A DNA stretch of 36,146 nucleotides. It comes from Saprospiraceae bacterium. Lineage in GTDB: Bacteria; Bacteroidota; Bacteroidia; Chitinophagales; Saprospiraceae. The first letter of the stretch is position 1. Every line of letters starts with the position of its first letter. The DNA is taken from NCBI GenBank assembly GCA_021298575.1, contig JAJTFM010000033.1, forward strand, positions 1 through 36,146, given 5' to 3'. The notes beneath the pieces were generated by a model. It saw only the letters and a list, made by a program, of their open reading frames with translations, was not told the DNA's origin and searched no databases. The translations under genes and the position numbers were made by a program. Shown here piece by piece: positions 26,715 through 31,840 of this stretch.

Positions 26715-29189
26715 ATGCACGCTGGACGATCTCAGTTTTGTTTGATTTGGGTTTCAATCTTTGCATTGACTACCCCCCGGTTGTTTTCCCAGAATTTTAC
26801 CCCCTACAGAACCATTCACACACTGACAGAAGTATCGGTGCGCGATACCATTTCCGGTATTGGAGTAAGTGTGCATGAGGTGATGCCCCGCGCGAAGTAC
26901 GGTGACGTCAGGATTCGGTTGCTCTCGTCGGGCAACCTGAGTACGCCGAACCTGTATGAAATTGAGTATTTTCCTGATGCCGGCTTTACTGGTGCAGATA
27001 CGTTTGTCATTGAGCGTCGCTCACCAGCAAGTTATCCGTATCTGTCATACAGGGGTTACAGAATAACAGTAGAGAATTCCATTCTTCAGCCTCAACACGA
27101 CTATTCGCTTTCGGAAGACGGCTCTCCTGTTGTTGTTACTCCGCTTTTGAATGATTTTAGTACAGCCGGAGAACTTGAAATACGTTCGATTCCTCTGGTG
27201 AATCACGGTACAGCAGCCATTCTTAATGGTAATGAAATTTTATTTACTCCTGAGCCCGGTTATTCCGGTGTCGGACATCTGAATTACACGGTCTGCGATG
27301 CGGCTGACAATTGCCGGACAGGCTGTGTCAGTATTGGTATCGGAGGCGCTGTTCCCGATTGTGAACCACTGAAAATTCATGTAAAGCGGGATGAACTGCA
27401 CGCATTGCCCCTCTCTTTCAGTTGCGATACTTTCATAACAGCAGCTCATGGTGTCTTGCAGATTGAAAACGGACACATACTGCGCTACCGTCCTGATCCT
27501 GGGTTCACAGGATACGATGAGTGTGTACTTTTTTACAAGAACAACGGTTATTCCTGTTCAAAGAATGTTGTTTTTCGGGTAATAGATCCGGGCACGCCTA
27601 ATATCATGGCCATGGATGACCGGGTATTCACTCCTGTGGGAATGCCTGTAACTTTCAACGTCAGGCAAAATGATATTGGAAATCTGCTGGTAAGGGGCTG
27701 GATAGTTCCTGCCGATTTCCCGGGAGAACTTACCAATAAAACAAGTGCCGGTCAGGTCACTTTTACGCCACGGGCTGGTTTTTCAGGAATAGCTACTTTT
27801 CAGTACAGAATTGGCTCTCCTTCTGCCACATCGCTGGAAACGGCAACCGTATCTGTTGTCGTTGATAATCTGGCTCCCTCGGGCAGATACACCCATAAAC
27901 TGACGTCGCCAGCCGGAAGGCCGCTCGTTATTAATTACAATATTCCTTTTAACGACTTCAGTTTCAGTATTGCAAGTGATGCTTCTCACGGTCAGATTCA
28001 GTACTTCCCCGGGAAAACCACTCAGACTATTGACGGTGAACCAGTAACCGGAGATAACCTGATTATTTATACACCTGATTATGGCTACCACGGTACTGAT
28101 AAATTTTCGCTGATCTATTGTGCGCCCAACGGACAGTGTCAGGTTGCAAAAGTGGAAGTGGAACTGAAAGCCACTGCTGATCCATCAGGTTGTTTTAATG
28201 AATGTGTGTGGCCCGGTGATATCAATAACGATGGTGCAATAAACTCCCGTGACCTGCTTCCGCTGGGTTCGCTTACAGGCAGGGCAGGAGTGCCGAGAAG
28301 CATTGGAAGTACCGACTGGATGGGGCATTTCTCTTTGCCCTGGCCCTCCAATCTGGTGGAAACGGGCTTTAACCACAAGTATGCCGATGCCGATGGAAAC
28401 GGCGAAATTGGTGCGTCGGATGCCGATTTCCTGCGTGTTGACGGTCAGAAATCAAGAAATCTGATGCCGCCCTTTATTCCGGATATAAAAGGTTTGCCGT
28501 TCTACATGAAAATGCTCACTCCCGCGCCTCAACTGGGTAAACCCATGCAGATAGAAGTCGGGCTTGGTTCACCAACGAATCCGGTGGTTGACCTGTACGG
28601 CTTCACTTTTGAATTTGCACTGGGTCCGGGCCTCCGTGATTCCGCATTTCAAATGAATTTTTATGATAATTCCTGGATAAATCTGGATGCACCGTCGCTG
28701 AATCTGGCCCGCAAGGCGGCGCAGGGACGGTTCGAAATGGCCTTCACCCGTACCAACGGTGAACCGGTAAGCGGCTATGGCCCTATAGGTGTCATGGAAC
28801 TGGTCATTATTGATATCATTGACGGAGGGGATCAGGACAGTCGCAGGGGCTTCACCGAAACTCCCGTTATTTCACTGAATTCGGGTCTGCAGACACTGGA
28901 TGCCATAGAACTTTCCATTCCAGTTGAAAGAGACTATACTACAGGAATCAGTGAATGCCGGGTATGGCCCTCTCCGGCGTCCGCTGTACTCTTTGTTCGT
29001 AATGAAGGACTGTCTGAACAGGCTTGCCTGCGTATAACCGACCTGTACGGAAGGGAGGTATTTCAATGCAGAAACTGGAATGGTAGTGAATTGTCTGTAC
29101 CCGTTGATAATCTTGAATCAGGTGTTTATCAGCTACATTTAATATCAGGGCGTTTCGCTACTCAGCAGCTTGTGGTTATTGCGCATTAA
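26715..29189 (+). CDS. Large secreted surface protein with Ig-like repeats, dockerin-like pair, cohesin-like domain and T9SS type A signal
   Basis: The 824-residue protein begins with a signal peptide (about 1-26, ending PRLFSQ). Several Ig/cadherin-like repeats follow (signature ILFTPEPGYSGVGHLNYTVCD; also VTFTPRAGFSGIATFQYRI and IIYTPDYGYHGTDKFSLIYC). A split dockerin-like module follows: GDINNDGAINSRDLLPLG near residue 498 and ADADGNGEIGASDADFL near 556, each a calcium-binding DxNxDG loop. Residues about 605-710 look like a cohesin/carbohydrate-binding beta sandwich (QIEVGLGSPTNPVVDLYGFTFEF). The last 80 residues are a T9SS type A sorting domain (VWPSPASAVLFV ... LESGVYQLHLISG). It is probably an adhesin or surface scaffold. 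The stop codon TAA is one copy of the target duplication of the adjacent MITE-like element. Confidence 0.85.
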   Translation: MHAGRSQFCLIWVSIFALTTPRLFSQNFTPYRTIHTLTEVSVRDTISGIGVSVHEVMPRAKYGDVRIRLLSSGNLSTPNLYEIEYFPDAGFTGADTFVIERRSPASYPYLSYRGYRITVENSILQPQHDYSLSEDGSPVVVTPLLNDFSTAGELEIRSIPLVNHGTAAILNGNEILFTPEPGYSGVGHLNYTVCDAADNCRTGCVSIGIGGAVPDCEPLKIHVKRDELHALPLSFSCDTFITAAHGVLQIENGHILRYRPDPGFTGYDECVLFYKNNGYSCSKNVVFRVIDPGTPNIMAMDDRVFTPVGMPVTFNVRQNDIGNLLVRGWIVPADFPGELTNKTSAGQVTFTPRAGFSGIATFQYRIGSPSATSLETATVSVVVDNLAPSGRYTHKLTSPAGRPLVINYNIPFNDFSFSIASDASHGQIQYFPGKTTQTIDGEPVTGDNLIIYTPDYGYHGTDKFSLIYCAPNGQCQVAKVEVELKATADPSGCFNECVWPGDINNDGAINSRDLLPLGSLTGRAGVPRSIGSTDWMGHFSLPWPSNLVETGFNHKYADADGNGEIGASDADFLRVDGQKSRNLMPPFIPDIKGLPFYMKMLTPAPQLGKPMQIEVGLGSPTNPVVDLYGFTFEFALGPGLRDSAFQMNFYDNSWINLDAPSLNLARKAAQGRFEMAFTRTNGEPVSGYGPIGVMELVIIDIIDGGDQDSRRGFTETPVISLNSGLQTLDAIELSIPVERDYTTGISECRVWPSPASAVLFVRNEGLSEQACLRITDLYGREVFQCRNWNGSELSVPVDNLESGVYQLHLISGRFATQQLVVIAH

Positions 29190-29367
29190 GAGCTTGTTCA
29201 GGATTCTCTCACCGAGTCAAAAACGTCTCATTTTTCGCCATTTTTCACCTTTTTTCAGTTACGTAGCTCCGGCTATGCGCCTTCAAAAATGCAAAAACTG
29301 AAATGCAAAAACTGACAAAAAATCAGCCTGTTTTTGCCACCGGCAGAGAATCCTGAACAAGCTCTAA
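29187..29367. mobile_element. 175-bp MITE-like palindromic element with TAA target duplication
   Basis: Perfect 20-bp terminal inverted repeats, GAGCTTGTTCAGGATTCTCT at 29190-29209 and its reverse complement at 29345-29364, enclose a non-coding, partly palindromic core. The core includes a near-perfect central stem around CGTAGC-TCCG-GCTATG, and A/T-runs that mirror each other. TAA occurs immediately outside both ends (29187-29189 and 29365-29367), as expected for a 3-bp target duplication. TNA duplications and termini of the GAGC-TGTTCAG type are known in parts of the IS5 family, so a non-autonomous IS5-like derivative is the best guess. No transposase is encoded. It makes up most of the 299-bp gap between the two T9SS genes; the rest (29368-29488) shows nothing beyond a weak TACCTTTTG near 29462. 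Confidence 0.75.
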
Positions 29368-29488
29368 GGCAAGCCGGGCAACCACATAGCCAGTATCAAC
29401 GTATTGGGGGGAGACCTGATAATTATTCGAGGCCGGGATGCAACCTCTGACACCTGAATGTTACCTTTTGGGGGGCATGCTTTATATT

Positions 29489-31840
29489 ATGAACAACCTG
29501 CCTGCTGTCTGCCGCTATCTGCGAGGATTAATCTGTGTCCTGTCATTCCAGATTCCGTTTTCTGTAATAGCTCAACCTGTTCCATGCGGGCCAGTCCCCG
29601 ATATGACACCAACGTGTATTGACGCTTGTGTGATATGCGATATCAATGGATATACAGGTATCAACGATGATACACAACAAGGACAGGCTCCTCCGGGATT
29701 CTGTACAACCCAGATTCACCACATGCAGTGGATTGCCTTTATTGCAGGCAGTACCAACCTGACTATTACAGTGAAACCTTCCAATTGTAATGGCGGACAG
29801 GGGCTCGAAATCGGTATCTACAGAAGTTTGAACTGCAGTGCCTTCCAACTGGTCTCCAACTGTGATACAGATGTGCAGGAGGGAGAAACCGGTGTTTTTA
29901 CCAATACGGTCCCGCTGGTTATCGGGCAGTATTACTATTTTGTAATGGATGGCAATCAGGGCGATATCTGCAACTACACCATCAATGTCACTTCAGGCAG
30001 TACGCAGGTTCCGCCACTTCCCCCCGCAGGTGCAGTTCAGGGGCCCGATGAAGTATGTCAGTTTGAAAGTGCAACCTTTGCGATTCCTCAGATAACCGGG
30101 GCAGTCACCTATAAATGGACCCTTGATGGTCAGCAGGTAGCCGGAGGGTTTCAGACTCCTGTAGTTTTCAACACCCCGGGCGACCATGAGGTATGCGTGC
30201 TGGCCTATAACGTGTGTGACACTGTGGCACCCTCCTGCAAAACAGTTCGTGTTAACAGTGTGAAAACAACCAGTCTTCAGTACGACCTCTGCAACGGGAA
30301 ATGTCTGTCGGTAGCTGATACAACTATCTGTGACCCGGGTAACTATGTATTCCACTTCCAGACGTCGGAAGGCTGCGATAGTACGGTGAATGTGACGGTG
30401 AGCGGATTACCCACCGTCATTACTTATCTCAGTGTCAATATATGTTCAACGGACAGTCTTTATGTAGGCGATACCTGGTATTTTCCACCCGGTCAGTTCA
30501 CGGAAGTACAAACCGCAGCCAATGGGTGCGACAGTATTATTAACCTGTCGCTGAATCCGATTATTTGTGAAATAACGGGCGCCACAGTGGTTCAGGATGT
30601 TGCCTGCAACGGGGATTCAACGGGCAGTGTCGCTTTTTCCGTTCAGAATGGAACCTCAACATTCAACTATACCTGGAAGCGGCTGGAGGGGTGGCCCTCA
30701 GGTGTCGGAACTATCGCCGCGCTGGGAGAACAAAAAATAATCTCCAATCTGCCTGCAGGAGAGTATCTGATTACAATTTCCGACAATTTCGGCAATGATG
30801 TGGTACTGACAGCAGAAGTCTCGGAGCCGCCGGCACTTTCTATCACCGAGACTTTATCAAGCTATAATGGTTTTGGTGTGTCTTGTTATGGTAGTTCAGA
30901 CGGTAGTATCAGTACTATCTGTACAGGAGGAACTCCGTCTTATTCCTGGAAATGGAACAATGGAGAAAGCATTCCTCAACTCGATTCGCTGAAAGCAGGG
31001 ACTTATATACTTACCCTCACCGACGCATCCGGTTGTACCGAAATAACCTCTGTTACCCTGACCCAGCCCCAGCCGCTTGTTCTGTCGGCCAGTTTCACCA
31101 ATCCGGGCTGCGAAGGGCCTGATACAGGTATCGCGACAGCCGAATTTGTATCAGGTGGAGTTGAGCCATATATGTTTTCGCTGTCCGGGGGCGTGTTTTC
31201 CTCCGGTTCCGTTTATCCCGGACTAACTGAAGGTCCCTGGTCGCTGGTGGTGGAGGACATCAACAGTTGTACCGACGATACCATTGCCATATTGAGGGCA
31301 GCAGAGATACCCGTAGTGGAAGCAGGAGAGGATGTGGATCTGCCACTCGGTTGTCCGCACCAGTTGCAGGCATTTTCGACCGTAACTCCGGCCTCGATTA
31401 CCTGGTCGAACAGTGGAAGTCTGTCGTGTACCGATTGTCTGTATCCGCTTGCAACGCCATTTAATACAACCGTTTATACCCTGCAGGTCACGTCAGGTGA
31501 TGGTTGCCTAGCCAGTGACAGCCTGACAGTGTATGTTATAAAGAACAGAAACATATACGCGCCCAATGTATTCTCGCCCGATAATGATGGTCTCAATGAT
31601 CATTTCAATCTGTACACCGACAAGGGAGCGCGTCAGATACGCTTTATGAGGATATACTCGCGGTGGGGTGAACTGGTTTTTGAAAAGAATAACTTTCAGC
31701 CGAATGAACTCTCGAACGGTTGGGATGGCTTGTTCGAGGGTCGCCTGATGCCACCCGGTGTGTTTGTCTGGACAGCCGAAATAGAATACTTCGACGATGA
31801 GGTGGTGAGAGCACAGGGTGACGTGACGATTGTGCGGTAA
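29489..31840 (+). CDS. Large secreted surface protein with PKD-like and SprB-like repeats and T9SS type B (gliding-motility) C-terminal domain
   Basis: The 783-residue protein starts at ATG 29489 (MNNLPAVCRYLRGLICVLSF... ending VIAQ). A Cys-rich N-terminal domain of about 150 residues (CIDACVICDINGYTG ... YYYFVMDGNQGDICNYTINV) is followed by a PKD-like domain (FAIPQITGAVTYKWTLDGQ) and three SprB-type repeats, each with a Cys, a glycine turn and GTY or GEY (for example CYGSSDGSISTICTGGTPSYSW and LKAGTYILTLTDASGC). The C-terminal 95 residues are the CHU_C/type B T9SS signal: APNVFSPDNDGLNDHFNLY, FMRIYSRWGELVFEKNNF, GWDGLFEGRLMPPGVFVWTAEIEY. Related proteins are exported and anchored to the surface, and some act in gliding or adhesion. 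Further in-frame ATGs lie upstream (29477, for example), but they add a non-signal tail. Confidence 0.9.
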   Translation: MNNLPAVCRYLRGLICVLSFQIPFSVIAQPVPCGPVPDMTPTCIDACVICDINGYTGINDDTQQGQAPPGFCTTQIHHMQWIAFIAGSTNLTITVKPSNCNGGQGLEIGIYRSLNCSAFQLVSNCDTDVQEGETGVFTNTVPLVIGQYYYFVMDGNQGDICNYTINVTSGSTQVPPLPPAGAVQGPDEVCQFESATFAIPQITGAVTYKWTLDGQQVAGGFQTPVVFNTPGDHEVCVLAYNVCDTVAPSCKTVRVNSVKTTSLQYDLCNGKCLSVADTTICDPGNYVFHFQTSEGCDSTVNVTVSGLPTVITYLSVNICSTDSLYVGDTWYFPPGQFTEVQTAANGCDSIINLSLNPIICEITGATVVQDVACNGDSTGSVAFSVQNGTSTFNYTWKRLEGWPSGVGTIAALGEQKIISNLPAGEYLITISDNFGNDVVLTAEVSEPPALSITETLSSYNGFGVSCYGSSDGSISTICTGGTPSYSWKWNNGESIPQLDSLKAGTYILTLTDASGCTEITSVTLTQPQPLVLSASFTNPGCEGPDTGIATAEFVSGGVEPYMFSLSGGVFSSGSVYPGLTEGPWSLVVEDINSCTDDTIAILRAAEIPVVEAGEDVDLPLGCPHQLQAFSTVTPASITWSNSGSLSCTDCLYPLATPFNTTVYTLQVTSGDGCLASDSLTVYVIKNRNIYAPNVFSPDNDGLNDHFNLYTDKGARQIRFMRIYSRWGELVFEKNNFQPNELSNGWDGLFEGRLMPPGVFVWTAEIEYFDDEVVRAQGDVTIVR

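Follow-up and report, generated by a model that had tools for sequence, protein, structure and literature searches.

The window analyzed here is a 36,146-nucleotide stretch of the genome of a Saprospiraceae bacterium, and the locus of interest lies between two large genes on its forward strand. The upstream gene (26715..29189, +) encodes an adhesin-like protein of 824 aa with matches to the Big_9, Cadherin_5 and Dockerin domains, and the C-terminus of this protein matches Por_Secre_tail marginally below the cut-off (26.8 vs 27 bits); given these matches, the label of T9SS adhesin that it had received in an earlier note, made from the DNA alone, is reasonable. The downstream gene (29438..31840, +) encodes a protein of 800 aa with SprB repeats and a CHU_C type IX secretion signal. 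Between the two lies a complete palindromic element of 175 bp (29190..29364, +), with terminal inverted repeats that match over exactly 20 bp (GAGCTTGTTCAGGATTCTCT; left repeat 29190..29209, +; right repeat, the same as the left, 29345..29364, −) and with a TAA target duplication on each side. The left TAA (29187..29189, +) serves as stop codon for the upstream gene and is thus the insertion site, and the right TAA lies at 29365..29367 (+). The perfect inverted ends, the palindrome, the paired TAA and the coincidence of the left TAA with the stop of the open reading frame at 26715-29189, all described in the earlier note, were thus borne out on the window sequence. There was no ORF of at least 80 aa within the element. 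Its length of 175 bp is unique among the 70 paired elements recovered from the host genome, the usual length in the family being 161 bp, and it is explained by a 14-bp tandem duplication (29287..29314, +), in which positions 29287-29300 are repeated at 29301-29314.

The element is a member of a MITE-like family that has spread to about 100 places in the host genome, a 3.57-Mb draft of 250 contigs. A genome-wide search with the 19-bp end, allowing at most two mismatches, returned 227 matches (122 forward and 105 reverse), whereas the reversed control returned none in either direction, so that these matches are not due to chance. At least 130 clusters were counted among the end matches listed, and 36 pairs had exact 16-bp ends at a total length of 132-162 bp. 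From 115 fetched stretches we obtained the 70 paired elements, 42 of them of 161 bp, nine of 151 bp and the others of 49 to 175 bp, apart from a single 249-bp pair that is probably spurious. Removal of one pair longer than 180 bp and of one with a repeated flank left 68 unique copies, of which 46 had matched TAA/TTA duplications and 22 did not. The 59 copies of 145-180 bp included 26 with TAA/TAA and 17 with TTA/TTA, while matched TGA or TCA pairs were absent (0/59) and TGA or TCA on one side only occurred in 6/59. The short length, the lack of coding capacity, the inverted repeats, the TWA duplication, the dispersed copies and the empty sites in a sister species together support the MITE-like nature that the earlier note had proposed. 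Since full-length host copies differ from their consensus at about 5 of 161 bases, the burst in the host was probably fairly recent.

Some copies lie in unusual arrangements. Elements or end fragments directly abut, or share one TWA, at L123 10741-10902, L131 2505-2690, L135 2503-2680 and L098 2500-2683, and we read these as insertions beside each other's target duplication. Two elements with near-identical flanks were found on different host contigs (L076 and L182, on C6 and C225), representing either a duplicated segment or a duplicate that stems from the assembly or from strains. Both ends are kept in short forms of about 58-86 bp, seen at L083, L084, L139, L145, L170 and L190 in the host and at L263 in the sister species; those with matched duplications, L083, L084, L170 and L190 among them, may have moved as such.

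Relatives found with the consensus were present in at least 25 of the 42 genomes of the genus, the host included; no more than 20 candidates were scored per genome, and the counts are lower bounds. The sample from other species comprised 65 places, two of them cut at the ends, and of the 63 complete ones 58 were exactly 161 bp long and 51 had matched TTA/TAA duplications. The end sequences vary by species, for example GAGCATGTTGGGG and GAGCGTGTTCGGG, and the two ends of one element agree. Because both ends change together between species, a recognition protein may have co-evolved with them. Among GTDB contigs, the exact 19-bp host end was restricted to the sister species (CAILQK010, LaPlata-5m-a_bin-010), apart from four single places in unrelated organisms. 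Viral contigs contained three single matches, two of them within genes. No match to a second end was found in viral contigs, plasmids searched with two copies of the element gave none, and Rfam returned three weak matches, all far below the gathering score.

Movement of the copies would occur in trans, by a DDE-type transposase. DDE_Tnp_4 is the transposase domain of PIF/Harbinger elements. An IS5-like parent had been suggested in the earlier note on the basis of the termini and a TNA target; the target is indeed compatible with TNA, but all matched pairs are either TAA or TTA, a narrower choice. The Pfam families PF01609, PF13586 and PF13359 had no match in the host or sister genome (drafts, 87% and 94% complete), although the built-in controls for the three families were positive in 9, 5 and 1 of 14 genomes, so that neither the proposed IS5-family transposase nor the PIF/Harbinger-type transposase PF13359 (DDE_Tnp_4; 0/2 genomes) was detected in the two drafts. 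In the excerpts of PMC4482050, eukaryotic PIF/Harbinger elements duplicate TWA and are related to bacterial IS5, which, together with the 3-bp A+T-rich duplication, would be consistent with a MITE that derives from IS5 and is mobilized by an IS5-family transposase. The same excerpts, however, give ANT as the duplication of bacterial IS5, and the three transposase families are missing from both genomes, an absence that in drafts falls short of proof; we consider this origin rather doubtful. No parent transposon with the element's ends at a larger spacing was found in the 115 host stretches. A wide inward-facing pair (L093, on host contig C56) was tried as a parent and set aside, the ORFs inside it looking ordinary. 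The same stretch (~1-423) holds the N-terminal part of an ORF of IS66 type, recognized by eye as a transposase and cut by the start of the contig; the start of this ORF falls outside the wide pair. A second wide inward-facing pair, of about 870 bp at L140, has flanks that are unlike.

Stop codons and the 3′ ends of genes carry a strong excess of the family's copies. The flanks of each copy were joined to restore the empty site, and genes were called by a simple codon-usage method. Among the 46 host copies with matched duplications, the duplication fell exactly on a TAA stop in 19, overlapped a stop by one base in 5 and was intergenic in 22. Thus 24/46 copies were at stops, compared with 184/2251 non-internal background TWA sites (8%; odds 12, p = 3e-14), and none of the 46 was inside a gene, compared with 7270/9521 background TWA sites. 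The 22 unmatched copies, five of which were at stops and five inside genes, were not counted in this test. Per 1000 TWA sites, the density fell from 129-152 at the stop to 22-25 within 1-30 bp downstream, 14 at 31-60 bp and at most 10 beyond, and the step from the stop to the adjoining 1-30 bp was about 6-fold (24/180 vs 6/259 sites, p = 9e-6). A second set, of 61 one-ended host copies, had 19 at the stop and 5 at 1-30 bp (p = 4e-4, same background).

A third set was drawn from the other species, where gene calls rest on the codon-usage method alone, the same method as in the host. The 65 places were reduced by 2 cut copies, 2 repeated loci, 12 unmatched copies and 3 copies inside genes (of 49 matched ones) to 46 copies outside genes, of which 14 were at stops, compared with 81/2318 background sites (3.5%; p = 9e-10). 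The 1-30 bp downstream of the stop were enriched as well (9/46 copies), the density per 1000 sites being 173 at the stop and 77-83 at 1-30 bp. The contrast between the stop and 1-30 bp was not significant in the other species alone (odds 2.1, p = 0.12), while pooling of the host and other-species sets gave p = 2e-5; it is thus mainly the host genome that supports exactness at the stop. The copies in the sister genome (G001) are older and mostly away from stops: ten stretches yielded one remnant at a stop.

Harmless landing within a coding frame would be an unusual ability in a mobile element. The distribution might reflect selection alone: the transposase would use any TWA, and copies would survive where they are harmless, the stop and the 3′ end being the safest places. 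The absence of matched host copies from genes, the fall in density with distance from the gene end and the strong use of the 1-30 bp interval in other species are all in line with this reading. However, the host stop is about 6 times as densely occupied as the following 1-30 bp, although both lie just behind the gene, and the one-ended host copies show the same contrast. Furthermore, stop and intergenic copies are similar in age, with means of 4.4 and 5.4 substitutions from the consensus (p = 0.21, not significant). We therefore regard selection alone as possible but not likely, and favor a combination, in which purifying selection would clear most insertions inside genes and target choice, not a function of the hairpin in the host, would add a preference for gene 3′ ends that is sharpest at host stops. 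A wider target motif was considered as an explanation for this preference at stops and rejected, since a matrix built from intergenic insertions favors background stops only about 1.4-fold relative to intergenic background sites (1.87 vs 1.34). Stop insertions score 0.91 on this matrix, and flanks are A+T-rich at intergenic insertions but not at stop insertions.

As read from the joined flanks, a landing on the stop rebuilds the stop, owing to the TWA target and to the G with which the element starts. The new stop is either TAA, the duplication itself, or TA followed by the element's first base. The latter applies to the register shifted by one base, in which the gene reads T-TA and the G of the element completes TAG; the joined empty site reads TAG at L132, L150 and L158, and TAA at L131 and L143. 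That the stop existed before the insertion was supported by the sister species, in whose genome we searched 23 of the 29 stop-associated host pieces, six having been omitted for query length. The sister lacked the element at 22 of the 23 loci compared, and in 18 of these 22 a stop (TAA, TGA or TAG) stood at the same column; at L107 and L150 the sister ORF ended one or two codons away, and for L135 and L174 no alignment was obtained at the end. The window locus was one of the empty ones: its orthologue in the sister shares 48% identity over the C-terminal piece and carries no element; a TGA occupies the same column, and similar sequence picks up again downstream of the stop. The empty allele sought by the earlier note is therefore present at the window locus and overall at 22/23 loci, and its claim of an insertion at a pre-existing stop that left the protein unchanged agrees with the position of the sister's TGA. 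The sole exception was L170, where a short, old and decayed element occupies this place in the sister, its left TAA changed. At this stop in the sister (L221, ~1830-1920) the ORF runs on into the old element, so that a repeat has here supplied the end of a protein.

The window copy lies in the orientation (+) that is mostly found behind stops in the host genome. Host stops carry 20 copies in this orientation and 4 in the opposite one (binomial p 0.0015), compared with 10 and 11 elsewhere, and for matched duplications only the counts were 18 vs 4 at stops and 8 vs 7 elsewhere; likewise, a host stop was faced by 33/84 left ends and by 11/75 right ends. At the stops of other species the split was 9 vs 5, which is not significant (p = 0.42). 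The idea that the strand of the TAA dictates the orientation was rejected, as intergenic copies split about evenly. A machinery that aims at gene ends and reads the direction of the gene would give oriented insertion at stops, perhaps by way of DNA exposed where ribosomes leave the transcript, with the TWA target and the leading G having evolved as a stop-rebuilding design; we hold this to be unlikely.

On either strand the window element is predicted to fold into a hairpin of nearly full length, with −61.3 kcal/mol for the plus strand (z −7.7) and −77 kcal/mol for the minus strand (z −8.5), and none of 200 shuffles was as stable. With the palindrome pairs assigned by self-alignment of the elements, two-sided compensatory changes were found at 19/60 interior pairs across species. 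The minus strand was the more stable one in 63/63 copies from other species, and G-U outnumbered A-C mismatches in 91/98 copies, with the reverse in 3 and ties in 4. These patterns make selection on an RNA possible. In its strongest form, the element would be a structured RNA whose minus-strand hairpin is itself selected, for mobility or for a role in the host, and private changes that lean to G-U in G022 (9 vs 1) and G061 (10 vs 3) would point the same way. However, private changes are even in three species (15 vs 12 in G000, 5 vs 4 in G020 and 5 vs 5 in G060), and by alignment column the asymmetry is small (about 11 vs 7 columns) and could be inherited. Arm-to-arm template switching can create compensatory changes in palindromes, and those observed here could have arisen in this way too. 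Taken together, we find an RNA element of this kind improbable.

The suggestion in the earlier note that the hairpin acts as a terminator for the adhesin transcript was not upheld. The region 28900-29800 contains no terminator-like site with a G+C-rich stem and a U-run (shuffles average 0.7), the element lacks a U-run at its end, and terminator-like hairpins, seen by eye, persist downstream of the element at L079, L175 and L180. These observations also count against a broader possibility, namely that the hairpin has been domesticated, serving mRNA 3′ end formation, stability or termination, and that selection keeps it behind genes in a preferred orientation. Such a role would account for the orientation bias at host stops, the stability of the hairpin and the compensatory changes that keep the palindrome paired. 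Yet the element is missing from the sister at 22/23 loci, copies get lost with remnants left behind, the weaker hairpin belongs to the strand found mostly behind genes, and the orientation bias is not significant in other species. We consider domestication very improbable.

The loss of copies can be followed in the one-ended host copies, about 10 of which are cut by contig ends while many others are not. We compared 14 one-ended copies at stops with the sister species and found orthologues for all 14. The compared copies keep between 13 and about 118 bp of the element, the minimum of 13 bp being set by the search word. In clear cases the remnants rejoin the native sequence at a shared short word, such as GGATT at L148 and TCAGG at L106; at L086, L146 and L184 the kept end stands in place of a similar length of native sequence, and at L080 the downstream side of the remnant did not align with the sister. 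Palindromes can be deleted between short repeats, a mechanism that the one-ended remnants fit, and copies of the family would in time be lost through such palindrome-associated deletion.

Taken together, these findings suggest as the probable explanation a genus-wide, non-autonomous MITE-like family, usually of 161 bp, whose copies are concentrated at stop codons by target choice together with selection and are later lost through their palindromes. With about 100 natural insertions in one genome and empty sites in a close relative, target choice becomes separable from selection. Should the stop preference arise during transposition itself, it would amount to a new targeting rule, one that might be used to place DNA behind genes with the proteins unchanged. 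The family is also a natural record of the loss of long palindromes.

REPINs are moved by a single-strand transposase (RAYT) and have no target duplication, which distinguishes them from the present family, with its clear 3-bp duplication. They resemble it as hairpin elements whose non-autonomous copies spread, as described in parts of PMC3116915. The 3-bp TWA duplication is shared with PIF/Harbinger elements (excerpts of PMC4482050), whereas neither for these nor for IS5 was a related transposase found in the host or sister drafts with the three families searched. No report of a MITE family whose duplication habitually forms a stop codon was found in the open-licence papers searched, and the excerpts of PMC6382973 and PMC2229807 describe no such habit. 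Precedents for repeats at gene ends are provided by the QMITEs and BOX. QMITE2 of Coxiella burnetii, of 150-190 bp, lies mainly in 3′ untranslated and intergenic regions, and QMITE1 and QMITE2 resemble the present family as MITEs at or overlapping gene 3′ ends (excerpts of PMC5896051 and PMC10969869). By contrast, the direct repeats of QMITE2 are variable, at 7-11 nt, and not a 3-bp TWA, and several QMITE1 copies extend 2-50 bp into the end of the coding sequence (excerpts of PMC5896051); in the present family the protein is unchanged. In Streptococcus pneumoniae, 36 of the 58 CDSs that overlap BOX do so at their extreme 3′ end, where the repeat encodes the stop codon, and the parts of PMC3049150 concerned report no strong evidence that these CDSs are truncated. 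BOX is therefore similar in being a small repeat that supplies the stop codon of a host gene, but its length is variable and can exceed 500 bp (same excerpts), whereas the element described here is a palindrome of fixed length. In the present family, furthermore, the TWA duplication is itself the stop codon, and this is accompanied by empty sites and by a measured excess at stops.
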